NCBI RefSeq assembly: GCF_016653465.1
Contig: NZ_NHSQ01000113.1
Span: 1 to 64,000 of the forward strand
Direction of reading: 5' to 3'
DNA: 64,000 nucleotides
Source: Thiocystis minor
GTDB lineage: Bacteria; Pseudomonadota; Gammaproteobacteria; Chromatiales; Chromatiaceae
Below are positions 33,530 to 61,205 of this stretch, piece by piece; the stretch's first letter is position 1, and every line of letters starts with the position of its first letter. Below the pieces are notes generated by a model. It was not told where the DNA came from. It worked only from the letters and a program-made list of their open reading frames with translations, and did no database searches. Made by a program: the position numbers and the translations under genes.

Positions 33530-34024
33530 TCATAAATATCGGTCCACTGCCCGCCGGCCATAGGGGGTGAGGTCGCGGGTGTCGGGGACGAGGTAGCGAA
33601 CACCATGGGAATCCAGGATCAGAGCGCTGTGGGGACCCAGGCGGCGCACGTCCTCTTCAGTCTTGAGGACGAAGCGAGTCGGACCACAATCGGTTTCCAC
33701 CTCCCATTCCGCGGGTTCCAGATAGCTGGAAACCTGGATCACCCGCAAGATGCGAGGGACGAATTCCCGTTGGGCGAGCTCGTCTTCCAGAATCGCGCGG
33801 ACATCGGGCGGCAGGTCGGCCAGATCCTCAATGCAGCGCAGTTCCCGCCCCTCGCGATCGCAGAGGGTCACCCAGCGCCGGGGATCGCTCAACGGGTAGG
33901 CCCGTACCGGAATCGCATCCTGGTGCTCGACACCTGTGGCGTCGATGTAGGTCAGTCGACCGAACGGGTTGATGCTTAGGTGAAAATCGGGGGGTTGATG
34001 GGCCGTTTCGTCGCTGGTGGTCAT
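33530..34024 (-). CDS. DUF1854 protein, cyanophycin-metabolism associated
   Basis: A 164-residue soluble protein. The pattern FHLSINPFGRLTYIDATG, VRAYPLSDPRRWVTLCDREG and REFVPRI is typical of DUF1854. That family co-occurs with cyanophycin synthetases and a dedicated ABC exporter, both of which follow in this window. The molecular role is unknown. It is transcribed away from the small secreted protein gene, with an 82-base divergent promoter region. Confidence 0.82.
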   Translation of the reverse strand: MTTSDETAHQPPDFHLSINPFGRLTYIDATGVEHQDAIPVRAYPLSDPRRWVTLCDREGRELRCIEDLADLPPDVRAILEDELAQREFVPRILRVIQVSSYLEPAEWEVETDCGPTRFVLKTEEDVRRLGPHSALILDSHGVRYLVPDTRDLTPYGRRAVDRYL

Positions 34025-34105
34025 GCCTCTACCTGTCGAGGATTTGCATTGTTGGCGCGCATTCTGTTTCCATCTCCATTCTATCGGTCAACCAGGAAAG
34101 AGGCG

Positions 34106-34555
34106 ATGTTTCCAGGCTCCACCAAACCCGCCATCCGCTCCGTCGGCTGGTTCGATTCGATGGGCTTGATTGGCCTGCTCGCCATCTGCGCCCTCCCGGC
34201 AACGGCGCTCGCCGCGCCGCGTTTGCGCTGCACGCTCGATCAGGGCGGCACGACCCAAACGAGCGAATCCGCTCCGGTCACCGACCCTTACCGCGTCGAG
34301 TCCACCGACATCAACGGACGGTTTCGTTTCAAGGCGGTGGCGGTCGGCGACGAACAGCAGGTCCGTTACGTCAAGCTCTACAGCTATTATCGCGCCAACG
34401 GGCGCTGGATGTTGCTGCATGAAGCAAGATACGAAACACCCGCGATTCAAACCGGCGGGGCGAGCGATGCCCTGACCGGTCGTCATTTTCTGTATTCCCC
34501 CGGTCGGGAGCGAGAGTTGCAATATGGTTGCACACTGATCGAGGTCGCCCAATGA
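34106..34555 (+). CDS. small secreted hypothetical protein
   Basis: A 149-residue protein from ATG 34106 (AAAGAGG upstream) with a signal peptide (MGLIGLLAICALPATALAAP) and a beta-rich mature part with two cysteines (LRCTLD and YGCTLI) near its ends, probably disulfide-bonded. No family is recognised. It overlaps the CapA-like gene by four bases (ATGA), so they are co-translated and both exported. Confidence 0.65.
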   Translation: MFPGSTKPAIRSVGWFDSMGLIGLLAICALPATALAAPRLRCTLDQGGTTQTSESAPVTDPYRVESTDINGRFRFKAVAVGDEQQVRYVKLYSYYRANGRWMLLHEARYETPAIQTGGASDALTGRHFLYSPGRERELQYGCTLIEVAQ

Positions 34556-35553
34556 TTTTGGCTTATCGCTCGCGTCTGGCCGTGATTCTCTGCGGCGCTT
34601 TCACCGCCTCTGGTTTTGCCGTGGCAGAGAGCTGTCCTCCTGAACCAATCGTCACACTCGCGATCGTCGGCGATCTCATGCTCGACGAGACGCCGGGCGA
34701 GGCGATCCGCAGTGGTCGCGATCCCTTTGCGCCCTTTGCCACCATCCTGGACGGCGCCGACATTCGCGTGGGCAATCTCGAATGTGTCGTCGCCACCCGT
34801 GGGGAGCCCGAACCGGGAAAGCCCTACACCTTCCGCGCCCATCCGCGCGTCTTGCAGACGCTCAAGCGGCATTTCGATGCGGTGAGCCTGGCAAATAATC
34901 ACTCCGGCGACTTCGGCCCGGTTGCCTTCGGCGAGATGCTCGACCTTCTGGGACAGGAAAGCATCGGCTGGTTCGGAGGCGGCAGCGACTTGTCGCGGGC
35001 GCATCGGCCGTTGGTGATCGAGCGTCATGGCCTGCGGATCGCGCTGTTGGGCTACAACGAGTTCCTGCCGCGCAGCTTCGAGGCCGATTACGACAAACCG
35101 GGGATTGCCTGGAGCGAGGACGAGCAGGTACAACTCGATATCGCCAAGGCTCGCGAGGTTTTTCACGCCGATCTGGTGATCCCGATCCTGCACTGGGGCT
35201 GGGAGCACGAGACCGTCGCCAGTCCGCGTCAACGCCAACTGGCGCACCTGATGATCGACGCCGGGGCGGACGCGGTCGTCGGCGGTCATCCCCATGTCAC
35301 CCAGGACATCGCGTCGTATCGCGGCAAGCCGGTCATTTACAGCCTGGGGAATTTCGTCTTCAACGGCTTCACCGAGGCTGTCAACACGACCGGCTGGCTG
35401 CTCCGTCTCGATCTGGATCGGGCAGGCGTGCGTCGCTGGCGGATCTTCATCGCGCACCTCGACGCCGAGGGCATTCCTCACCCGGCTCCGTCTTCCGATG
35501 AGGTTTGCTGGGAACGAGGACAGGGAAACCCATCGCCCTGCGGGAATCGCTGA
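34552..35553 (+). CDS. CapA family (poly-gamma-glutamate capsule type) protein
   Basis: A 333-residue exported protein with a signal peptide and a CapA/PGA_cap metallophosphoesterase-like domain: VGDLMLDETPGEAI, GADIRVGNLECVVA, SLANNHSGDFG, LHWGWEHE, GGHPHVTQDI and YSLGNFVFNG. CapA proteins act in poly-gamma-glutamate surface polymer handling. Beside cyanophycin genes it may process or anchor an exported amino-acid polymer, which is inference. The last residues (GQGNPSPCGNR) look non-conserved. Confidence 0.87.
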   Translation: MILAYRSRLAVILCGAFTASGFAVAESCPPEPIVTLAIVGDLMLDETPGEAIRSGRDPFAPFATILDGADIRVGNLECVVATRGEPEPGKPYTFRAHPRVLQTLKRHFDAVSLANNHSGDFGPVAFGEMLDLLGQESIGWFGGGSDLSRAHRPLVIERHGLRIALLGYNEFLPRSFEADYDKPGIAWSEDEQVQLDIAKAREVFHADLVIPILHWGWEHETVASPRQRQLAHLMIDAGADAVVGGHPHVTQDIASYRGKPVIYSLGNFVFNGFTEAVNTTGWLLRLDLDRAGVRRWRIFIAHLDAEGIPHPAPSSDEVCWERGQGNPSPCGNR

Positions 35554-35585
35554 CGGGAATCCACGCTAGGCGCATCGGACGCGGT

Positions 35586-37889
35586 TCAAATGACGACATG
35601 CTGCTTCGCCTGCTCCATTTGGGCGTGGTAGAGCCGGTAGTAAAGGCCCCGCTGCTCCAGTAGTGCCTTGTGCGTCCCGACCTCGCCGATCCGGCCGCGT
35701 TCGAGCACCACCAACCGGTCAGCCTGGCGCAGGGTGCTGAGACGATGGGCGATAGCGATGGTCGTGCGGCCCTGGGTCAGGTTGTCGATGGCGCCCTGGA
35801 TCTCCCGTTCGGTCTCGGTATCGACCGAGGAGGTGGCCTCGTCGAGGATCAGAATCCGAGGGTCGGTCAGCAGCGCGCGGGCGATGGAGATGCGCTGCCG
35901 CTCCCCGCCCGAGAGCGATTGGCCACGCTCGCCCACGAGCGAGTCATAGCCGTCCGGCAGACGCAGGATGAATTCATGGGCGCGGGCGGCACGGGCGGCG
36001 GCCATCACCTCGGCCCGGCTGGCGCCCGGACGGCCGTAGGCGATGTTGTCGGCGATGGTGCCGAAAAACAGGAAAGGTTCCTGCAGGACGATGCCGATGT
36101 TGCGCCGGTAGGCTTCCACCGGGAAGGAACGCACGTCGACGCCATCCACCAGCAATTGGCCCTCGGCGACGTCGAAGAAGCGGCAGATCAGGTTGACGAG
36201 CGTGGTCTTGCCCGCCCCCGTGTGTCCGACCAGACCCACCATCTCGCCCGGCTGGATCGCGAGGTTGATGTCGTGCAGAACGCGCCGTGGTCCATAGTTG
36301 AAGGACACGCCGCGCAACTCGATGGCCCCCTTGACCCGTCCCAGCGCGACCGGCTTGCTCGGCTCCGGGACGCTGGGGATGCGATCCAGGATTTCGAAGA
36401 CGCGGTGCGTCGAGGCGGCGGCGCGCTGCACCGCTCCGACCAAGCGGCTGAGGGTCTCCAAGCGGGCGTAGAAGCGACCGATGTAGGCAATGAAGGCGGT
36501 CAGCACGCCCACCGTCACATGATCCTGACCGACCTGCCAGACCCCGAAGGCCCAAACCACCAGCAGCCCCAGTTCGGTGAGAAAGGTCACGGTCGCGCCG
36601 AAGAAAGACCAAAGCGTGTTGACCCGGGTGTTGATCGCAACCACGTTCTCGTTAGCTTGATCGAAGCGCTCGATCTCGCGCCGCTCCTGGGTGAATGCCT
36701 TGACCACCCGGATGCCGGGAATGGTGTCCGCCAGCACACTGGTCATCTCCGCCCAGGCACGACTGCCGCGCTCGAAGCCGTGGCGCAGACGCGCGCGCAC
36801 CACCTGGACCAGCCAGGCGATCAGGGGAAATGGAGCCAGGGTGACCAGCGCCAGCACCGGATCGATCGAGAAAAGCACCACCGAGACCATCAGGATGGTC
36901 AGCAGGTCATTCATCAGGTCAAGCAGGCTGACCGAAAGGAAATGGCAGAGCCGTTCGGTGTCGCTGCCGATGCGCGCCATCAGATCCCCGGTGCGCTTGC
37001 CGCCGAAGAACTCCAGCGACAGTGTCTGTAAGTGTGCGTAGGTCGCGCCGCGCAGGTCGGCGGCGATGCGCTCGCTCACCACGGCCAGCACGTAGGTGCG
37101 GCCCCAGCCGAGCAGCCAGGCGAGCAGCGCCGCGCCCCCGAGACCGGCCAGATAGAAGAGGGCGAGCCGGTAATCCAGGGGGGCGCCGGTGCTTTGATGA
37201 GGAATCAGCACCTCGTCCAGCAAGGGGATCGTGAGATAGGGCGGCACCAGACTGACCGCCGTGCAGGCGAGCATGAGACCGAAGCCCAGGGCAATGAGTC
37301 CGGCCCGCGGGCGCGCGAAGCGGGTGAGCCGCCAGAGCGAACGACCGGGCGGCGGCAGCGGCGGGGCGACGCAAAAGGCGCAATCGCTCTGGCCAGAGGG
37401 GACCACGGCACCGCAGGTGGGGCAGATGGTCCCCTGGCCTTCGCCTCCCGTGACTGCCCTTCCGCGGAGTCGGTCAAGGGCGGCGGTGCAATGCGCGGCA
37501 AAGCGTTTGGCCGACGCCTGGCAGGCGGCGGTATGGCGCCAGTACGCGAGCCGGCGGTCCGTCCCCAGCAGCTCCAGGAATCCCGCGTCACCACGCTGAC
37601 CGGCTCGCACCTGGTCCAGTTCGGCCAGCGGCCAGGACATCCAGGACTCGGCGGCCCCGGTCGGATTCGGGCCCAACAGCCGGCGCGGCGTCAGACACAG
37701 GAAACCGGCGTGATACTGGAGCCGCTGATTCAGGTCCGGCGCGAACCAGGCGAGTGGGAATTCTCCCGCGTCGAGTTGAGATTGAAGGGCGGCGGTCCAG
37801 GGCGGTAAGGGGCCGTTCGGAGCGTCCCAGGGAGGTGACGGAAGATCGGTTGGAGATGCTGGTTGGGCCAAGGGACTGTCGGGATCCAT
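35586..37889 (-). CDS. ABC exporter with PH-like N-domain and zinc ribbon
   Basis: A 767-residue fused half-transporter from the ATG at 37889 (a further in-frame ATG lies at 37910). An N-terminal PH-like domain (LTPRRLL, DRRLAYWRHTAACQASAKRF) is followed by a zinc ribbon (CPTCG and CAFC, about residues 158-175). Next come a six-helix exporter domain and a nucleotide-binding domain with Walker A GHTGAGKTT, signature LSGGERQRISIARALL and Walker B ILILDEATSSVD. The layout matches the cyanophycin-metabolism-associated ABC family. It probably acts as a homodimer. The transported molecule is unknown. Confidence 0.88.
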   Translation of the reverse strand: MDPDSPLAQPASPTDLPSPPWDAPNGPLPPWTAALQSQLDAGEFPLAWFAPDLNQRLQYHAGFLCLTPRRLLGPNPTGAAESWMSWPLAELDQVRAGQRGDAGFLELLGTDRRLAYWRHTAACQASAKRFAAHCTAALDRLRGRAVTGGEGQGTICPTCGAVVPSGQSDCAFCVAPPLPPPGRSLWRLTRFARPRAGLIALGFGLMLACTAVSLVPPYLTIPLLDEVLIPHQSTGAPLDYRLALFYLAGLGGAALLAWLLGWGRTYVLAVVSERIAADLRGATYAHLQTLSLEFFGGKRTGDLMARIGSDTERLCHFLSVSLLDLMNDLLTILMVSVVLFSIDPVLALVTLAPFPLIAWLVQVVRARLRHGFERGSRAWAEMTSVLADTIPGIRVVKAFTQERREIERFDQANENVVAINTRVNTLWSFFGATVTFLTELGLLVVWAFGVWQVGQDHVTVGVLTAFIAYIGRFYARLETLSRLVGAVQRAAASTHRVFEILDRIPSVPEPSKPVALGRVKGAIELRGVSFNYGPRRVLHDINLAIQPGEMVGLVGHTGAGKTTLVNLICRFFDVAEGQLLVDGVDVRSFPVEAYRRNIGIVLQEPFLFFGTIADNIAYGRPGASRAEVMAAARAARAHEFILRLPDGYDSLVGERGQSLSGGERQRISIARALLTDPRILILDEATSSVDTETEREIQGAIDNLTQGRTTIAIAHRLSTLRQADRLVVLERGRIGEVGTHKALLEQRGLYYRLYHAQMEQAKQHVVI

Positions 37890-38206
37890 GAAACGAGCGA
37901 GCGCCGGCACGGCGCACGGGAGACGCCAATGGTCGCACTTGGCTCGCCGCTTTTCCAGAACGGCCGGTCGATGGCAACCGCGGAGACGCTGGGCGGATTC
38001 GCGGATCTCGACTTTCGCGCGCCCCCGTCATAGCATCTCGCCGCGACCTCCCCACCCGACCTCCGCTCGCGCGTCGCTCGTGGCCCATGGAGGGTCGAGT
38101 ACGGATCGCGCGACGGGCGCGCGATCCCTGCTGATCCAGGTTCCTCGGTCCGCGCGCCCGCCGACGCAAGGTCGGCCAGCGCGCCCGAGGAGGAACGCCC
38201 GTTCAA
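37890..38206. other. shared control region of ABC exporter and cphA genes
   Basis: About 317 bases between divergent starts, all GC-rich. A strong GAGGAGGAA lies at 38187-38195 before the first CphA-like frame. No clear promoter hexamers, no gene. Confidence 0.4.
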
Positions 38207-40519
38207 TTGCGTGTCGGGTCAGATCGAGTGCATATCCGCAGAGTTCGTGAATTGCGCGGCCTTAACCTCTGGGCCGATTTTCCCGTGGCCGAAGTCTGGC
38301 TGGATCTCTCCGATCATCCGCCCGGCGACATCCTGTGGTCGTCCGCCTATCTGCGTCCGCGCCTGGGCCGAATGCTACCGGGTCTGAAGCGACCGCGTCG
38401 ACCGCCCATCAAACACGACCAGAAGCGCCATGAACGCTGGCTGACGCAGGTGCTTCTGGAGATCATCCTTGAGCTGGCCGCCCGCATCGGCAAGCGCCCC
38501 GATTTTACGCGGGTACGCCGCACCTCCGAACCGGGCGTCTATCGCCTGGTGTTCCAGTCGATCGAGGGGCTGCCGGCGGCGGACTGCGCCGAAACCGCGC
38601 TCGAAATCGTCAAGGCCGCCTTGGCCGGTATCCAGTGCGACACCGAGCGCCTGCTGGAGGCACTGCGCGCGAAGGCACGGGACATCGCGCTCTCGCCCAC
38701 CTGCGCCGCGCTCCTGACGGCGGCCCAGGCACGCGGCATCCCGGTGCGGCGACTGCCCGGCGAGGTGCTGCAATTCGGTCACGGCGCCCGGCAGCGACGC
38801 TGGTTCCGCACGGCCCTGGCCGAGACCGAGCCAGCGACCCTGGAGGCGGCCCGGAATCGGGAATTGCTCGACACCTTGCTGGCGGCCACTGGCCTGACCT
38901 GTACCGAGGCACCGGTCACGGATGCCCACTATCGGATATTGGTGGCCGGACAGCGCGTGCTGGCCGCGCTCTGGTGGCAACCGGATTCCAGCGGCAACGC
39001 ACTTGGTTCCACGGCCACGGACGTGAGCGGCCTGCTCCACGAGGAGGTGCGCGCCCGCTGCCTGGACGCGGTGCGCGCCCTGGGGCTGGAAACGGCGGAG
39101 GTGCGTCTGGCGATGGCGGATATCACGCGGTCCCTGGAGTCGCAGGGCGGTCGGGTGAGCGAGGTTATCCCCTACCCGCCGCTCGATCTCTATCTCGACG
39201 CAGTCACCTCGTGCTCTATTGCCGACGCCTGTCTCGACACCCTGTTCCGACCCGGCGAGACCGGCCGCGTCCCGATCGTGGCCGTGTCCGGGACCAACGG
39301 CAAAACCACCGTGACCCGCCTGATCGCCCACGGACTCGGCATCTCCGGACGCTTCGTCGGCATGACCTGCACCGACGGGATCTATCTGGGCGAGCGGCGC
39401 ATCGACACCGATGACTGCGCCGGACCCCAAAGCGCCCGGCTGGTGCTGCTCAACCCCCAGGTGGAGGCGGCGGTGCTGGAGACCGCCCGGGGCGGCATCC
39501 TGCGCGAGGGGTTGGGCTTCGACGCCTGCGACGTGGCGGTGGTCACCAACATCGGCGAGGGGGATCATCTGGGACTGGGCTGGATCGACACCGTCGCGGA
39601 GCTGGCCGAAGTCAAACAGACCCTGGTGCGCGGAGTCGGTCCAGAGGGGACCGCCGTGCTGAATGCCGACGACCCCCTGGTCGCCCGGATGGCCAGGCAT
39701 TGCCGGGGCGACGTGCTGTTCTTCGCCCGAGAGGCCAGTCATCCACTGATTTTGCGCCACCGGCGGAATGGTCGGCGCGTGGCCTTCACGCGGGGGTTGG
39801 ACCTGATCCTGGCCGAGGGCAGGAACGAATGGACCCTGCTCCCATTAAGCCGTATCCCTCTGACCCACGACGGGCGGATTGGCTTTCAGGTCGAAAATGT
39901 CCTGGCGGGTGCGGCCGCCCTCTGGTCCCTGGGCGTCCCTTTGGAGACCCTGACCGTCGCCCTGGAGACCTTCGGGGCCGATCTGGACAAGAGTCCGGGG
40001 CGCTTCAATGTGCTGACCATCGCTGGCGCGACCGTGGTCTTCGACTATGGCCACAACCCCTCCGCGCTCATCGCTTTGATTGAGGCCCTCGGGGTCTTCC
40101 CGCATCGGCGTCGGCTGGCCGTCTATTCCGCCGCCGGGGATCGACGCGACGTGGACCTGATTCGTCAGGGCGAGATCCTGGGCCACGCCTTCGACCAGGT
40201 CATCCTTTATGAAGATCACTACACCCGTGGACGTCAGCCGGGCGAGATTATGTCGATCTTCAATCAGGGATTGGCCCTGGGCCAGCGGGTACGCGAGATC
40301 CAGACCATCCACGGCTGGCAGAATGCGGTGGAATCGGCGCTGTGGCAGGCACAGCCGGGGGATCTGCTGCTGATCCAGGCCGACGTGATCGACGAGACCG
40401 TCGACTTTGTCCGCGCCCACCTCGCGGGGGATGCGGCGCTCCGGGAACTGCCTTTGCTCCGGTCGACTTTGGCCAATGCTTCGGCGCGGGAGCCGTCCGC
40501 GTTCATCGGGCAAGCATGA
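38207..40519 (+). CDS. cyanophycin synthetase-like protein with intact Mur ligase but gutted ATP-grasp
   Basis: About 770 residues. The N-terminal CphA domain (RELRGLNLWADFPVAEVWLDL) is followed by a much shortened ATP-grasp region (about 225-340): the segment that should hold the KP...G.GV lysine loop and the E.YIPG motif is reduced to TDAHYRILVAGQRVLAALWW. The Mur-ligase part is complete, with P-loop GTNGKTTVT near residue 361, ETARGGILREGLGF and the C-terminal VFDYGHNPSA. So the arginine-adding activity looks intact and the aspartate-adding one lost. TTG 38207 opens the frame; GTG 38228 is also possible and aligns better with the second CphA. The family's CphA/CphA-prime pairs occur in proteobacteria. 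Confidence 0.85.
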   Translation: MRVGSDRVHIRRVRELRGLNLWADFPVAEVWLDLSDHPPGDILWSSAYLRPRLGRMLPGLKRPRRPPIKHDQKRHERWLTQVLLEIILELAARIGKRPDFTRVRRTSEPGVYRLVFQSIEGLPAADCAETALEIVKAALAGIQCDTERLLEALRAKARDIALSPTCAALLTAAQARGIPVRRLPGEVLQFGHGARQRRWFRTALAETEPATLEAARNRELLDTLLAATGLTCTEAPVTDAHYRILVAGQRVLAALWWQPDSSGNALGSTATDVSGLLHEEVRARCLDAVRALGLETAEVRLAMADITRSLESQGGRVSEVIPYPPLDLYLDAVTSCSIADACLDTLFRPGETGRVPIVAVSGTNGKTTVTRLIAHGLGISGRFVGMTCTDGIYLGERRIDTDDCAGPQSARLVLLNPQVEAAVLETARGGILREGLGFDACDVAVVTNIGEGDHLGLGWIDTVAELAEVKQTLVRGVGPEGTAVLNADDPLVARMARHCRGDVLFFAREASHPLILRHRRNGRRVAFTRGLDLILAEGRNEWTLLPLSRIPLTHDGRIGFQVENVLAGAAALWSLGVPLETLTVALETFGADLDKSPGRFNVLTIAGATVVFDYGHNPSALIALIEALGVFPHRRRLAVYSAAGDRRDVDLIRQGEILGHAFDQVILYEDHYTRGRQPGEIMSIFNQGLALGQRVREIQTIHGWQNAVESALWQAQPGDLLLIQADVIDETVDFVRAHLAGDAALRELPLLRSTLANASAREPSAFIGQA

Positions 40520-40667
40520 GGCGGATCCGCGCCGACCGCTCGCGATGCGCTCCAAGGTTGCGCGGCCAGCCAAGAGGCGGTTTCGTCGGGAAATGGACAG
40601 GATGAACAGGATTTTACCGGAACACGCCCAACCAACCGCGCCGACTGCCGGTGCATCAGGAACTCCC

Positions 40668-42848
40668 ATGCTGACCATCCAACATCAATGGGTTCTGCGG
40701 GGCCCCAACCTCTGGGCGCATTTCCCGGTCATCGAACTGCGACTGGACCTGGGCGCAATCAAAGACACCTCGTCCGAGGAGATTCCGGGATTCAATGACC
40801 GGCTCAAATCCTGGTTGCCGTCGCTGATCGAGCACCGTTGTAGCGTCGGCGAACGGGGAGGCTTCTTTCAGCGGCTGGACCGGGGCACCTACATGGCGCA
40901 TATCCTGGAGCATGTCTCGCTGGAACTGCAAACCCTGGCCGGTACCCCGGTGGGCTATGGTCGCGCCCGCGAAACCGACGATGAGGGCGTCTACAGGGTC
41001 GCCATCGAATACGCGGAAGAAGCACTGGGCCTGGCCGCGATCGCAGTGGCCCGCGAGTTGATCCTCGCCGCCATCCACGACGCCCCATTCGAGGTGACGG
41101 CTGAGCTGGAGCGTCTGCGCGACCTCTGCCATGAGGTTCGACTCGGTCCCAGCACCGCCGCCATCGCCAAGGCCGCCCGCGCTCGCGGCATTCCCGTCCG
41201 CCGCCTGGGCTCCGAGAATCTGCTGCAACTGGGCTGGGGGTGCCGTCAGCGCCGCGCCTGGACCGCCGAGACCGACCGCACCAGCGCCATCGCCGAATCC
41301 ATCGCCCAGGACAAGGAATTGACCCGGATGCTGCTGCGCGCGGTCGGGGTGCCGGTCCCCGAGGGCCAGCCAGTCGCGACTGCGGAGGACGCCTGGCGGT
41401 TTGCCCAGGCGCTCGGCGCACCGGTCGTCGTGAAGCCGCGCTATGGCAACCACGGCCGTGGCGTCACCGCCAACCTGACTGGCCGCGAGCCGATCGAGGC
41501 GGCCTTTGCCGCTGCCCAGGAGGAAGGCTCGTCCATCCTTTGCGAGCGCTATATCCCAGGGGCGGATCATCGACTCCTGGTCGTGGGCGGGCGTCTGGTC
41601 GCCGCCGCTCTGCGCGAGCCGGCTCAGATCGTGGGCGACGGGCGTTCCTCGATTCAGGAGTTGGTCGATGCAACCAATCGCGATCCACGCCGGAGCGCCG
41701 GGCATGCCACGATGCTGAGTTTGATCGAGCTGGACGCGATCGCGCACGCGATGCTCGCCGAGCAGGGTCTGACCCCGGAGTCGGTCCCCGCCGCCGGGCA
41801 GCGGGTGCTGCTGCGTCGCAACGCCAATCTCAGCACCGGCGGAACCGCCGCGGACGTGACCGACCGGGTCCACCCGGCGGTTGCCGCCCAGGCGCTGGAA
41901 GCGGCGCGGATGGTGGGCCTGGATCTGGCGGGGATCGACATCCTGGCCGCCGACATCGCGCGTCCCCTGGAGGAACAGGGTGGCGCCGTCGTCGAAGTCA
42001 ATGCCGGTCCGGGACTGCGCATGCACCTGGAACCGTCCGCCGGGCAACCGCGCCCGGTGGGCGAGGCCGTCGTGGACCTGTTGTTTCCCGAGGATACCGA
42101 CAGCCGCATTCCGCTGATCGCGGTCACTGGGGCCAGCGGCGCCGACTCGACCGCCCGGCTCATCGCGCATCTGATCCAAGTTCAGGGCGACTTGGTGGGC
42201 CTGGCCACCCAGGATGGCATCCAGATCGGCGAGCGCCGCATCGATCCGCGCGACGGCTCCGGCCCCGAGGCGGCACGCACCCTGCTGATGCACCCGCGAC
42301 TGGACGCGGCGGTCCTGGCGTTGGCGGCTGGCTCCATCCGGCGCGAGGGGCTGGGTTTCGACCGCTGCCGCGTCGGTGTCGTCACTCAGATCGGCGAGAC
42401 GCTCCCCGTGGGACAACCCGGAATCGAAACGCTGGATGATCTGGTGCGCGTCAAACGCTGCGTCGTGGAGGCCGTCGCCCCGGACGGCTACTACGTCCTC
42501 AATGCGGACGATCCCCGCGTGGTCGGGATGGCGGAATCCTGTCGGGGCGCGCCGATCTGGTTTGCCAGCGGCCCGGAGATCCCGTCGGCGACTCCGGAGA
42601 TTGGTCGAGATGACCGAGCCGTGTTGGAGCGGGACGGCTTGATCGTCCTCGCGACGGGCGAGGCGATGGAGCCCCTGTTGCCGCTAGGACAGGTTGCCTG
42701 GATCGAGCAAGGGCGGGAGCAACCCCGGATCCAGCCAATCCTGGCCGCGGTTGCCGCGGCCTGGGGCCTGGGGTTGTCTCCGGACGAGATGCGCGCGGGG
42801 CTGATGACGATCCCACCGTCATTTGGCCAAGCGACAGGGCCGGGGTGA
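40668..42848 (+). CDS. cyanophycin synthetase-like protein with intact ATP-grasp but degenerate Mur domain
   Basis: A 726-residue protein from ATG 40668 (AGGA in front; ATG 40602 is an alternative). N-terminal CphA domain, then a full ATP-grasp: APVVVKPRYGNHGRGV (about 250-266), ILCERYIPGADHRLLVVGG, DLAGIDILAADI and VEVNAGPGLRMH. In the Mur-ligase domain the P-loop GTNGKTT has become GASGADST, and the protein stops about 150 residues early, lacking the C-terminal Mur subdomain. It should add aspartate to the backbone but not arginine. It starts about 150 bases after the other CphA-like gene, so the pair probably forms one working synthetase. Confidence 0.85.
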   Translation: MLTIQHQWVLRGPNLWAHFPVIELRLDLGAIKDTSSEEIPGFNDRLKSWLPSLIEHRCSVGERGGFFQRLDRGTYMAHILEHVSLELQTLAGTPVGYGRARETDDEGVYRVAIEYAEEALGLAAIAVARELILAAIHDAPFEVTAELERLRDLCHEVRLGPSTAAIAKAARARGIPVRRLGSENLLQLGWGCRQRRAWTAETDRTSAIAESIAQDKELTRMLLRAVGVPVPEGQPVATAEDAWRFAQALGAPVVVKPRYGNHGRGVTANLTGREPIEAAFAAAQEEGSSILCERYIPGADHRLLVVGGRLVAAALREPAQIVGDGRSSIQELVDATNRDPRRSAGHATMLSLIELDAIAHAMLAEQGLTPESVPAAGQRVLLRRNANLSTGGTAADVTDRVHPAVAAQALEAARMVGLDLAGIDILAADIARPLEEQGGAVVEVNAGPGLRMHLEPSAGQPRPVGEAVVDLLFPEDTDSRIPLIAVTGASGADSTARLIAHLIQVQGDLVGLATQDGIQIGERRIDPRDGSGPEAARTLLMHPRLDAAVLALAAGSIRREGLGFDRCRVGVVTQIGETLPVGQPGIETLDDLVRVKRCVVEAVAPDGYYVLNADDPRVVGMAESCRGAPIWFASGPEIPSATPEIGRDDRAVLERDGLIVLATGEAMEPLLPLGQVAWIEQGREQPRIQPILAAVAAAWGLGLSPDEMRAGLMTIPPSFGQATGPG

Positions 42849-58577: not shown

Positions 58578-61205
58578 ATGAATAAAAATTCTAGCTTTGG
58601 ACTTCGAGAACTTGCCGATCTCGTCAATCACAATGAAATACTATTGCCGACCGTACAGCGGGGTTTTGTCTGGAAGCCTAGCCAAATCGAGAATCTTTGG
58701 GATTCGCTGCTGCGCGGTTATCCGATCGGGGCCATCGTACTCTCACCGCAAAAGAACGACACCTATAGTCTGCTGGACGGCCAGCAGAGATTGACTGCAA
58801 TCTGTCTAGGACTGGGCAGAGAAACTTTTCGAGATGGGACCACACAGATCAGGATTTTCATCGATCTTGCACTTCCAACGGACGACGACGATGACCCGCG
58901 GAAATACGTCTTTCGCGTAATTACCCGTTCGCATCCGTGGGGTTATCAGCGCAAGGACAATACAAAGACACTTGATCAGGCATCGATCCGAAAAGCACTT
59001 GAGCTTTACATAGAAGTGGATGACCCGATGGCATCGGATCTCTCCTTGTTTTTCCCTTATGACGCCAAGTTACCGATCCCCTTCAGCTACTTCGTTGATG
59101 CGACGACAACGGAACAGGTTTGGAAGAAGGCCGCTTCCATGCCAGGCTGGCAAGAAATCCTGAATCGTTGGTGGCATTCTCACACTCCTAGGCCAGGCGA
59201 GAGCAAAGAGGCTCTCGCGATGGAATTGATCAAGCAGGTATTTAACCTTACACGAAAGGTACTTAACGATTCTAAGGAAAAGCCCGTTCCAGCCCTGTAT
59301 CTGGATTTCGACACCTTTAACCCTGCATCAGGACCACAAATCGAACAGGATGAAAAAGATGAGGAAGCCCTCGACGAGATCGAGAACCTCTTTGTTCGTC
59401 TAAATGCGGGTGGCACACCTCTAGGAGGTGAGGAGCTCAATTACTCCATCCTCAAGTCGCATATCGAGTCGTCGCTTCAGGAACACATCGAGAAGTCCTG
59501 CTACCCATTCTATGATCCGGCACGATTTATCACGATCGCGTATAGGCTTTTCCAATCTGACCCAAATAAGGGTGGGTTGGGAGAGTCCATGTCAATGCGA
59601 GTCAAGCCAAAGCAGTTCCAGAGAGCTATGACCGATAAGCATAGACGCGGCGAATTTGTAGAATTCTTACAGGCTTTGTTAGATTCTAATGCCGTGGAGG
59701 AAAAGAGCTTACTCGGCTACACCAAGCAGGTTCTAACCTTCAACTCAAAAGCCTTGTCGTTCGGTCTCCCCTACCCGGTAGCGGCACGGCTGTCGGACCG
59801 GGCGCCGGAAATCGTTTTCCTACTGCTGTACCGCATCTGGTTCATGAAAGACCGGTTCGATTTCGAGAAAGATAAAGATAAAGATCTGCATCGTAAGATG
59901 CTTGGAGTGATTTCGCTTCTTACATGGCTCGGAAAAGAAAGCGGAAAGAAAGGATACAGGCGGCTACTGAGTAATGTTTGGCCAGCCGTGAAGGTGCTGC
60001 CGACAAATTTATTCTGGTCATCGGCGACCATTCGACGTGGGCAGATCGAGGATGTTCTCCCTCAGATACCAGGAATCGACACTTTGAAAGGGCATGTACC
60101 CGCAAACGCTAGGCAGAGTACATGGACTAAATACTTTCGCGAACGCGCCGAGGACCCCTTCATGTCCAATGTTTTCTCAAATCAGGAACTTATCCTTTTC
60201 GCGCAACGAAAATTTATTTCAGAATGCGTTAATGAAGAGGTATTTCACCTGAGCGACACCAACGATCCGTTTGACTGGGACCATATTTTCGCACAGAAAT
60301 TTATCAAAGGGAAAAGGGGTATACCGCAACATGTTAAGGATTGTTACAACATGATCGGGAACTTCCGAGCATGGCCTTATTCACTTAATCGCATTGATCA
60401 AGATGATGCACCGAACAAAAAGCTTGACCCGCTTAACGAGCGTTATTTTGATGACTCAAAAGCTATTAATCAAGCCAGCCTTCCCTGGAAGAAATTCCTC
60501 AACGCAAAGTTCCCGCATATTAAGGTTAGCAAATTAACCAACGCCTTGTGCGAGTGGTCGTTTTGCGATGACAAATGGCGCGACTGCGAAGTCGGCGACC
60601 TCAGGCAATCGAGGTATTGGATACCGATATGCCAGTTGATCGTCGACAGAAATCTCGCGCTTTGCGCGAACTGGTATAAGGAGTTCAAGCTTGAAGAGCT
60701 TATTCCAGATCCTGTCGAATTTCTGTTCGAGCACGCCTTGAACATAAGACAATGGAAGACAGATCCTGATGAATGGAATGATTATTTTGATTTTGAGGCT
60801 TATTCTTATCGGCTAAAGAAAATTGGCTCATTAGCCTCTCTGGGAATAGATGCGTATCTCTACATCGGCATCCCCCGTGGAGAGGAGGATGGAGATTTAG
60901 GGATACTGGCGGAAGAGGCTGTCGAGTTTGGCGTCTTCCAACCGGGCAACGAGGAGTTCATCGGCAAGCTAAGCATTCCCGATAATCTTGAGTCACGATA
61001 CGAGGTTTACTCAGGGGACTACGTACAGGGTAAGTTCACGTTGGTATCCGATGACGAGGCATCGTATCGACGCCTGTTTGGCGAACTCTGGCGTTGGCTG
61101 GATGAATTTCCACTCACTAAGAATAAAAAGCATAATGGAGCGATCCAAGGGCTCGCCGATGAATTTCAGATGGCCCTAAAAAATAGGTACCGAGCTGATG
61201 CGTAA
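58578..61205 (+). CDS. DUF262/HNH (GmrSD-like) protein in a low-GC island
   Basis: An 875-residue protein. The N-terminal DUF262 domain carries the ParB-like motif LLDGQQRLTAIC (about 66-77) after LPTVQRGFVWKPSQIENLWDSLLRGYPIG. Near residue 565 lies an HNH/DUF1524-like segment: FDWDHIFAQKFIKG, then NMIGNFRAWPYSLNRIDQDD. The final 200 residues match nothing I know. DUF262-DUF1524 proteins include GmrSD-type modification-dependent enzymes and phage-defence effectors, so a defence role is likely. GC is visibly lower (around half) and codon use differs from its neighbours, indicating recent acquisition, next to a toxin-antitoxin pair. Confidence 0.8.
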   Translation: MNKNSSFGLRELADLVNHNEILLPTVQRGFVWKPSQIENLWDSLLRGYPIGAIVLSPQKNDTYSLLDGQQRLTAICLGLGRETFRDGTTQIRIFIDLALPTDDDDDPRKYVFRVITRSHPWGYQRKDNTKTLDQASIRKALELYIEVDDPMASDLSLFFPYDAKLPIPFSYFVDATTTEQVWKKAASMPGWQEILNRWWHSHTPRPGESKEALAMELIKQVFNLTRKVLNDSKEKPVPALYLDFDTFNPASGPQIEQDEKDEEALDEIENLFVRLNAGGTPLGGEELNYSILKSHIESSLQEHIEKSCYPFYDPARFITIAYRLFQSDPNKGGLGESMSMRVKPKQFQRAMTDKHRRGEFVEFLQALLDSNAVEEKSLLGYTKQVLTFNSKALSFGLPYPVAARLSDRAPEIVFLLLYRIWFMKDRFDFEKDKDKDLHRKMLGVISLLTWLGKESGKKGYRRLLSNVWPAVKVLPTNLFWSSATIRRGQIEDVLPQIPGIDTLKGHVPANARQSTWTKYFRERAEDPFMSNVFSNQELILFAQRKFISECVNEEVFHLSDTNDPFDWDHIFAQKFIKGKRGIPQHVKDCYNMIGNFRAWPYSLNRIDQDDAPNKKLDPLNERYFDDSKAINQASLPWKKFLNAKFPHIKVSKLTNALCEWSFCDDKWRDCEVGDLRQSRYWIPICQLIVDRNLALCANWYKEFKLEELIPDPVEFLFEHALNIRQWKTDPDEWNDYFDFEAYSYRLKKIGSLASLGIDAYLYIGIPRGEEDGDLGILAEEAVEFGVFQPGNEEFIGKLSIPDNLESRYEVYSGDYVQGKFTLVSDDEASYRRLFGELWRWLDEFPLTKNKKHNGAIQGLADEFQMALKNRYRADA

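Follow-up and report, generated by a model that had tools for sequence, protein, structure and literature searches.

A cyanophycin synthetase probably divided over two adjacent paralogous genes in Thiocystis minor and other Chromatiaceae

Do two neighbouring cyanophycin synthetase genes, each of which has lost what the other retains, together encode one enzyme? The question is raised by a locus of Thiocystis minor in the first 64,000 nucleotides of contig NZ_NHSQ01000113.1 (hereafter the window; part of contig C113 in a genome of 5.3 Mb and 198 contigs), where two open reading frames (ORFs) on the plus strand, ORF1 and ORF2, are neighbouring CphA1 homologues that show complementary losses when their residues are mapped on SuCphA1. 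The original prediction, made from the DNA itself, had described them as two adjacent CphA with complementary dead domains, and this description holds: both ORFs and the motifs were found at the positions listed here, and the residue mapping agrees. Judged from sequence, the products A and B of the two genes probably make up one cyanophycin synthetase, its three presumed active sites divided over two paralogous subunits.

38207 to 40519, plus strand: ORF1 (the "A" subunit), CphA1 homologue with the M site only; TTG start, 770 aa
38909 to 38926, plus strand: junction in ORF1 (residues 235-240) at which the ATP-grasp lid (Glid, with K261 and H267) is missing; from alignment columns, boundaries after PMC9427784
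38987 to 39007, plus strand: junction in ORF1 (residues 261-267) at which the omega module Gw (SuCphA1 333-396) is missing; from alignment columns
39290 to 39310, plus strand: Mur P-loop GTNGKTT of ORF1, intact in the sequence; GTNGKTT in 12/12 A proteins
39563 to 39568, plus strand: D453-H454 of ORF1, aligned with the M-domain catalytic residues D585-H586 of SuCphA1, intact; role from PMC9262961
40668 to 42848, plus strand: ORF2 (the "B" subunit), CphA1 homologue with N and G sites and a dead M site; 726 aa from the ATG at 40668
40839 to 40913, plus strand: N-domain zinc-peptidase motif Cx19HxxEH of ORF2 (primer-making site), intact in the sequence; 11/12 B proteins
41427-41465, plus strand: ATP-grasp stretch of ORF2, VVKPRYGNHGRGV, from the sequence
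41445 to 41459, plus strand: GNHGR of ORF2, phosphate-binding loop of the ATP-grasp lid, with the H267 equivalent; GNHGR in 12/12 B proteins
42129 to 42152, plus strand: degenerate Mur P-loop GASGADST of ORF2, from the sequence

The frame listed for ORF2 opens at 40407 and homology is found only from the ATG at 40668; in-frame ATGs at 40593 and 40602 are other possible starts.

Residues backed by CphA1 mutants or structures (PMC9262961, PMC9427784) served as the yardstick. According to PMC9427784, the G domain consists of Gcore (162-234, 306-324 and 400-487), Glid (235-305) and Gw (325-399), the M domain of Mcore (488-723) plus a second module, Mlid, and in TeCphA1 a large dimer interface is made by Gcore. 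The N domain bears a zinc-peptidase-like Cx19HxxEH site that generates primers; it is fully present in 83% of nr70 CphA1 and hence not universal (PMC9262961).

Searches with Pfam identified Mur_ligase_M and Mur_ligase_C on ORF1 and found no ATP-grasp domain there; the predicted retention of GTNGKTT and of a complete Mur C-terminus was thus borne out. The match of ORF1 to SuCphA1 and TeCphA1 is strong over the M domain (E ~1e-100) and weak over the N domain and the first part of Gcore, and its alignment to SuCphA1 jumps from ~233 to 398. The gaps coincide with Glid and Gw, in which 10% and 13% of positions are filled; SuCphA1 residues ~237-302 (two residues excepted) and 333-396 are missing, and the three Gcore pieces are kept. 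The ATP-grasp domain of the first gene is therefore defective, as had been claimed, but it has lost its lid and omega insert and not, as the claim had it, its core. ORF2 aligns with SuCphA1 from residue 7 to 729 (E 2e-163) and ends there; Pfam detected a RimK-type ATP-grasp domain, Mur_ligase_M below threshold only, and no Mur_ligase_C. As predicted, VVKPRYGNHGRGV and VEVNAGPG are present in its translation, the P-loop position reads GASGADST in a dead Mur site, and Mlid is absent; all six ATP-grasp residues tested are also kept. A third complementary loss had been missed: the N-domain peptidase site (C59/H79/E82/H83) is absent in ORF1 and present in ORF2. A complete G and a complete M site are thus never found in one chain, as ORF1 is without Glid and Gw and ORF2 without the M site and Mlid. 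Alignment to CphA of known structure, in which the missing residues were sought elsewhere in each chain, did not refute this reading, and a structure-chain search found no solved chain closer than CphA1 for either ORF.

The occurrence of the pair was examined with a profile built from four ORF1 proteins and with an ORF2 profile, both run over 210 genomes of the family Chromatiaceae (E<=1e-60, best five candidates per genome scored; an order-level search drew the same 210 genomes). The ORF1 type was found in 13/210 genomes, namely four of the seven seen in the window's genus, eight of Thiodictyon and one of a third genus. The ORF2 profile recovered the same 13, and within this scope neither A without B nor B without A was found. 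Twelve of the pairs, spanning these three genera of one family, are intact, and in each of the 12 the genes of A and B lie next to each other on one strand. In the thirteenth, the purple endosymbiont Ca. Thiodictyon intracellulare (G511; L059 / L093), both genes are broken, A being split into several frames and B reduced to a 294-aa fragment; this decay fits the cphA loss reported for the organism (PMC8195481).

The same division recurs across the intact pairs. None of the 12 A proteins has the N site, Glid, Gw or R458, and G456 is lost in every one; K499, T500, T522, E558, D585 and H586 are all present in 12/12, as are the complete M site and Mlid. Among the B proteins, K261, H267, R309, N394, G456 and R458 are each kept in 12/12 and the N site in 11/12; a complete M site and Mlid are found in 0/12, the D585-H586 pair is incomplete in 12/12, and T522 is replaced in all 12 (by S in two). 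The residue table left out five loci (L054-L057, L059) that are the same records as G004, G001, G517, G514 and G511, and proteins <620 aa, among them the G511 fragments. Paired losses had been expected to recur across relatives, and they do: the M/G pattern is seen in 12/12 pairs and the N pattern in 11/12, including assemblies of 1 and 3 contigs (G005 and G518), so that neither chance nor assembly error accounts for it. Apart from G401, none of the 12 pair genomes yielded a third CphA (up to five candidates per genome); in the window's own genome TIGR02068 detected none, the next match scoring 46 bits. The additional CphA of G401 (L172, on the 4 kb contig C294 of a metagenome-assembled genome, or MAG, that is 81% complete) is 59% identical to a protein of the g1 type described below and is probably contamination. 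Separately, other genomes of the family carry CphA relatives of 600-900 aa (L052:12987-14831, L174 and L175) that match SuCphA1 at 28-36% over parts of its length.

Selection on the two genes was estimated as the ratio of nonsynonymous to synonymous substitution rates (dN/dS; Nei-Gojobori) in six genome comparisons, not all of them independent. Over the whole gene, A ranged from 0.11 to 0.20 and B from 0.15 to 0.23. In Mcore, A gave 0.05-0.18 versus 0.17-0.88 for B, with B higher in 6/6 comparisons; conversely, Gcore1 was higher in A than in B in 5/5 evaluable comparisons, and the N domain was higher in A in 4/6. Both genes are under purifying selection, and each live ligase domain is held more strictly than the partner's dead counterpart, Gcore3 of A excepted. 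Taken together, the catalytic residues and modules that each gene has lost or kept, their conservation, selection, co-occurrence and adjacency establish a split at the residue level: a known enzyme has been divided over two genes, and this division is conserved and under selection.

How might such a divided enzyme work? In the proposed scheme, the ATP-grasp G site of B would add aspartate to the C-terminus of the chain, and the Mur ligase M site of A would then join arginine to the new aspartate side chain; the N-domain zinc-peptidase site of B would cut nascent polymer to provide primers. The chain would shuttle between A and B in turn, each having lost the other's ligase. It has been argued for CphA1 that binding at the G site requires the last unit to carry its Arg side chain, which prevents the formation of poly-Asp (PMC9427784); neither ligase should for this reason run alone, and alternation between two subunits would be the simplest reading. 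Most likely the leftover N domain and Gcore of A and the leftover Mcore of B would serve to hold a hetero-oligomer together, in which A and B would meet through their Gcore modules as CphA1 protomers do; that A has kept Gcore and B Mcore, although neither module has a working site any more, points in this direction. We consider a joint activity of A and B likely, infer that the product would be Asp/Arg cyanophycin, and regard a physical complex as plausible. Of the predicted subfunctionalisation into an obligate hetero-oligomer, then, the reciprocal loss and the division of labour are well supported by residues, deletions, selection, co-occurrence and the lack of a third CphA outside G401, and the hetero-oligomer would follow from them by extrapolation.

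Several points weigh against this reading. The complex of A and B is deduced from sequence, and so is the folding of Gcore in A, because the AlphaFold models (made from 6-row alignments) were poor: their pLDDT was 62 and 49, and residues 183-355 of A, most of Gcore, fell below 50. With the ORF1 model, Foldseek returned CphA1 7lgj_A as best match (E 4e-42, TM 0.45), which adds nothing beyond the sequence. One B protein, that of G401, lacks the N site. The M P-loop residue K499 survives in 5/12 B proteins and E558 in 3/12, so that the inactivity of the M site of B is argued mainly from the D585-H586 pair and Mlid. W672, reported to be required for the SuCphA1 tetramer, is absent from all A and B, and also from nearly all other CphA compared. 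In five comparisons the dN/dS of the B Mcore was 0.17-0.31 (0.88 in one), and a further function of this module is possible. Gcore3 of A (0-0.20) is constrained about as strongly as its Mcore even with its catalytic residues gone, which may mark a structural role or some other one. Finally, searches of pair genomes for known enzymes of cyanophycin breakdown found none, a point that bears on how the product would be used.

One possible explanation is that labour is divided without a stable complex: A and B would form separate homo-oligomers that exchange a soluble chain, the leftover domains serving only for folding in cis. The sites of CphA1 do work partly in trans, as SuCphA1 mutants conferred primer-making activity on TmCphA1 upon mixing (PMC9262961), and the computed results contain no sign of contact between A and B. 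Against this stand the retention of Gcore, the dimer interface of TeCphA1 (PMC9427784), in 12/12 A proteins despite the loss of the G site, and the adjacency of the genes in 12/12 pairs. Neither argument is decisive, and we judge this alternative unlikely, at roughly one chance in four.

Tandem pairs are also found outside the family. When 369 genomes of the class were scanned (best two candidates per genome scored), no further ORF1 type came to light but five adjacent cphA pairs did, two in one order (G139, G255) and three in one family, f92 (G123, G244, G345). Within the order of G139, which we take to be Burkholderiales, the ORF2 profile matched 94/250 genomes, with at least two matches in 85. 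We read 45 other pairs, comprising 40 of these 85, picked for spread and score among the matches listed and not at random, and the five from the scan; 42/45 come from that order. Presumably these are the pairs named CphA and CphA'; here the first gene is called g1 and the second g2. The N site is present in g1 in 44/44 evaluable cases and R458 is replaced in 44/44 (by L in 42), L130_g1, cut by the sequence end, being left out of the N and G counts; a complete M site is found in 9/45 g1 and Mlid in 10/45. In g2 the N site is present in 0/45, R458 in 45/45 and a complete M site in 45/45, and Q takes the place of H267 in 42/45. The G-site residues of these pairs therefore look split between the partners. 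Taken by themselves, the 40 newly fetched pairs (L125-L164) have R458 replaced in every evaluable g1 and H267 changed to Q in most g2.

In both kinds of pair exactly one member has the N site and the other the complete M site (55/56 evaluable). In Chromatiaceae the G site is on the N-bearing member; in the other pairs, going by R458, it is on the M-bearing one. The parallel with CphA/CphA' tandems drawn in the original prediction calls for correction: such tandems exist, but the 45 pairs are partitioned differently.

Two further genes lie upstream of ORF1.

35586 to 37910, minus strand: gene of a "cyanophycin metabolism-associated ABC transporter", divergent from the pair; NCBIfam NF052233, 1211 bits (cut-off 880)
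33530 to 34024, minus strand: "cyanophycin metabolism-associated DUF1854 family protein"; NCBIfam NF052234, 184 bits (cut-off 150)

DUF1854 (NF052234) was found in 12/12 intact A/B genomes and in 5/5 g1/g2 genomes tested; three congeners lacking the pair, two single-CphA relatives and Ca. Thiodictyon intracellulare gave no match. The ABC gene lies in the flank of 8/12 A/B pairs and of 5/5 g1/g2 pairs with long flanks, the gene order relative to it being reversed between A/B and these five. Among the other four A/B pairs, G514 and G401 have <3 kb of contig left upstream of A, and the gene is absent from the 7.8 kb (G515) and 3.9 kb (G517) upstream of A. In the window, the ABC gene and DUF1854 are separated by ~1.5 kb (34024-35586) that contain a minus-strand ORF of 332 aa (34483-35481) without a Pfam or NCBIfam family match; the two genes are direct neighbours in G512 and G513.

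These neighbours bear on the possibility that the product of the pair is a different polymer or peptide akin to cyanophycin, with another amino acid for Asp or Arg, or one that is exported, the ABC transporter being the exporter. A CphA-associated transporter and DUF1854 do accompany the pair. Moreover, cyanophycinase (TIGR02069) was found in 0/21 genomes (17 carry an intact pair, the others being G511 and three congeners that have none), Peptidase_S51 in 0/21 pair genomes (G511 included) and the IaaA-type PF01112 in 0/18; controls for the three models were positive in 2, 7 and 5 of 14 named genomes, respectively, and Peptidase_S51 was found in 2/2 single-CphA genomes searched alongside. Such an absence fits the report that only 3% of cphA1-bearing beta-proteobacterial genomes have a recognisable cyanophycinase (PMC10206079), a rarity that would also suit another product. 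On the other side, the tested catalytic residues match those of Asp/Arg CphA1, IadA and other dipeptidases were not among the enzymes searched for, the ABC gene is outside the flank in 4/12 pairs, and DUF1854 is on the contig of the pair in 6/12 A/B genomes and on another contig in 6/12. A different product thus appears improbable.

A scenario in which B acts like CphA2, its G site alone polymerising ready-made beta-Asp-Arg while A has a separate task, fares worse. ORF2 scored 426-566 bits against five CphA1 chains and 215-218 against 7ta5 (7TA5) and 8fxh (8FXH), which we take to be CphA2 structures; it keeps H267 where 7ta5 has K (alignment by eye), and the pair genomes searched yielded no cyanophycinase that could supply dipeptides. 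Cyanobacterial CphA2 is, like B, without the M P-loop and Mlid (PMC9427784). B, however, keeps Cx19HxxEH, which is absent from CphA2 (PMC9262961), and R458, which recognises free Asp (PMC9427784), and we consider a CphA2-like role very unlikely. It is hardly credible that the genes are pseudogenes in decay, a tandem duplicate that sheds its functions bit by bit. The locus can decay, as Ca. Thiodictyon intracellulare demonstrates, but all 12 intact pairs, from three genera, share one fixed pattern of lost and retained M and G features, and six comparisons gave whole-gene dN/dS of 0.11-0.23. Outside G401 no third copy was found, and decay would not spare complementary sites.

The relation of A/B to g1/g2 was addressed with five trees and eleven clade questions (one needing no test), which asked whether both go back to one duplication, A corresponding to g2 and B to g1. 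In the M trees the long-branch row G012 was dropped, and 15 g2 and 11 g1 were included in the first, 8 and 11 in the second; the N+G tree held 20 of the 40 newly fetched pairs, with G021 and the Gw-less G123 Prime protein dropped, and another tree held 6 pairs. The Mcore tree unites A with g2 at 85/88. Approximately unbiased (AU) tests rejected no arrangement at 0.05 (A+B, p 0.06; B+g2, p 0.09; B+g1, p 0.46; A+g1, p 0.27). The one CphA of a Planctomycetales MAG contig (L058:8902-11724), full-length in a frame of 940 aa, has all three sites, with Q at 267, matches ORF1 251-750 at 55% and ORF2 1-714 at 57%, and groups with A, B, g1 and g2 in trees. It resembles an undivided relative; no ABC or DUF1854 match was found in the 16 kb of this contig that were searched.

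A candidate exchange between subunits was rejected. In TeCphA1, E215 of one protomer is reported to reach the G site of its partner, and donation of this residue (E215') by A to the G site of B was considered. Only 3/12 A proteins have E at this position; ORF1 has E and ORF2 S, and S, A, T, G or N is found in the 12 B, five g1, five g2 and L058. E215 seems simply to have been lost in the clade.

On the reading of A and B as one divided synthetase, a wider picture can be put forward tentatively, with slightly less than even confidence. The synthetase may have been split at least twice, or in two ways, into obligate two-subunit machines, M / N+G in Chromatiaceae versus N (with altered G) / G+M elsewhere. 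In both, the N endopeptidase would have been parted from the Arg ligase, and the ATP-grasp domain of the Chromatiaceae M subunit would be a lid-less Gcore remnant used only for assembly. Given the exporter-type ABC gene, DUF1854 and the lack of a known degradation enzyme, the product would perhaps be no ordinary internal reserve. If this is true, nature offers a polymer synthetase of biotechnological interest with its Asp-ligase and Arg-ligase already on separate subunits, the hand-off between two active sites becomes directly testable by mixing subunits, and the same enzyme has been divided along different lines in two lineages, its recently found primer-making peptidase site included. It also sharpens the question of how the polymer is recovered and used in bacteria with tandem cphA and no recognisable cyanophycinase.

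Two side observations were made. In L044, L045, L046, L047 and L050, CphA1 stands beside a MurE-like ligase of 560-596 aa related to the CphA M domain, which is, on sequence relatedness, apparently another arrangement with a spare M-type ligase. Elsewhere in the window, an 875 aa GmrSD_N (restriction endonuclease-like) protein at 58578-61205 lies in a patch of ~50-52% G+C that was probably acquired, the window being otherwise mostly 60-68%.

How does the pair compare with known systems? With CphA1 (SuCphA1 7LG5, TeCphA1 7WAC) it shares the N-G-M order and, where kept, the same catalytic residues, at an identity to SuCphA1 of 37% for the ORF1 M domain and 41% for ORF2. CphA1 has all sites in one chain, whereas A/B has M on one chain and N+G on the other; ORF2 shares Cx19HxxEH with CphA1 and ORF1 is without this motif, itself not universal in CphA1. 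Among NCBIfam models, ORF1 remains below both cut-offs (TIGR02068, 549 versus 850; NF010623, 637 versus 877), while ORF2 passes NF010623 (999.5 versus 877) and falls just short of TIGR02068 (846 versus 850); no separate model for A or B was among the matches listed. Cyanobacterial CphA2 is without the M P-loop and Mlid, as is ORF2, which differs from it by the N motif, H267 and R458.

The proteobacterial tandem cphA pairs have in common with A/B two adjacent genes with N on one member and M on the other, a divergent ABC gene and DUF1854 (five pairs with long flanks), and genomes in which no cyanophycinase (five searched) and no S51 peptidase (eight searched) was found. They differ in that their N-bearing member is without R458 and their M-bearing member keeps G and M (45 pairs), whereas in A/B the G site stays with N and is deleted from the M member. 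In the literature, a Thiodictyon pair has been mentioned as "two subunits". PMC10687191 describes a cluster of two cphA copies and an ABC transporter without cphB, reports that the two neighbouring copies of Accumulibacter are evenly expressed, and cites Fuser and Steinbuchel 2007 for neighbouring cphA copies; PMC5178258 describes cphA1 adjoining cphA2 in Sideroxydans and reports no cyanophycinase in beta-proteobacteria. A description of the N/G/M partition was not found in the literature searched, which mostly excluded subscription papers, and may be in print elsewhere. Tandem cphA genes are thus already known; what is new here, within that literature, is this division of labour among the N, G and M sites.

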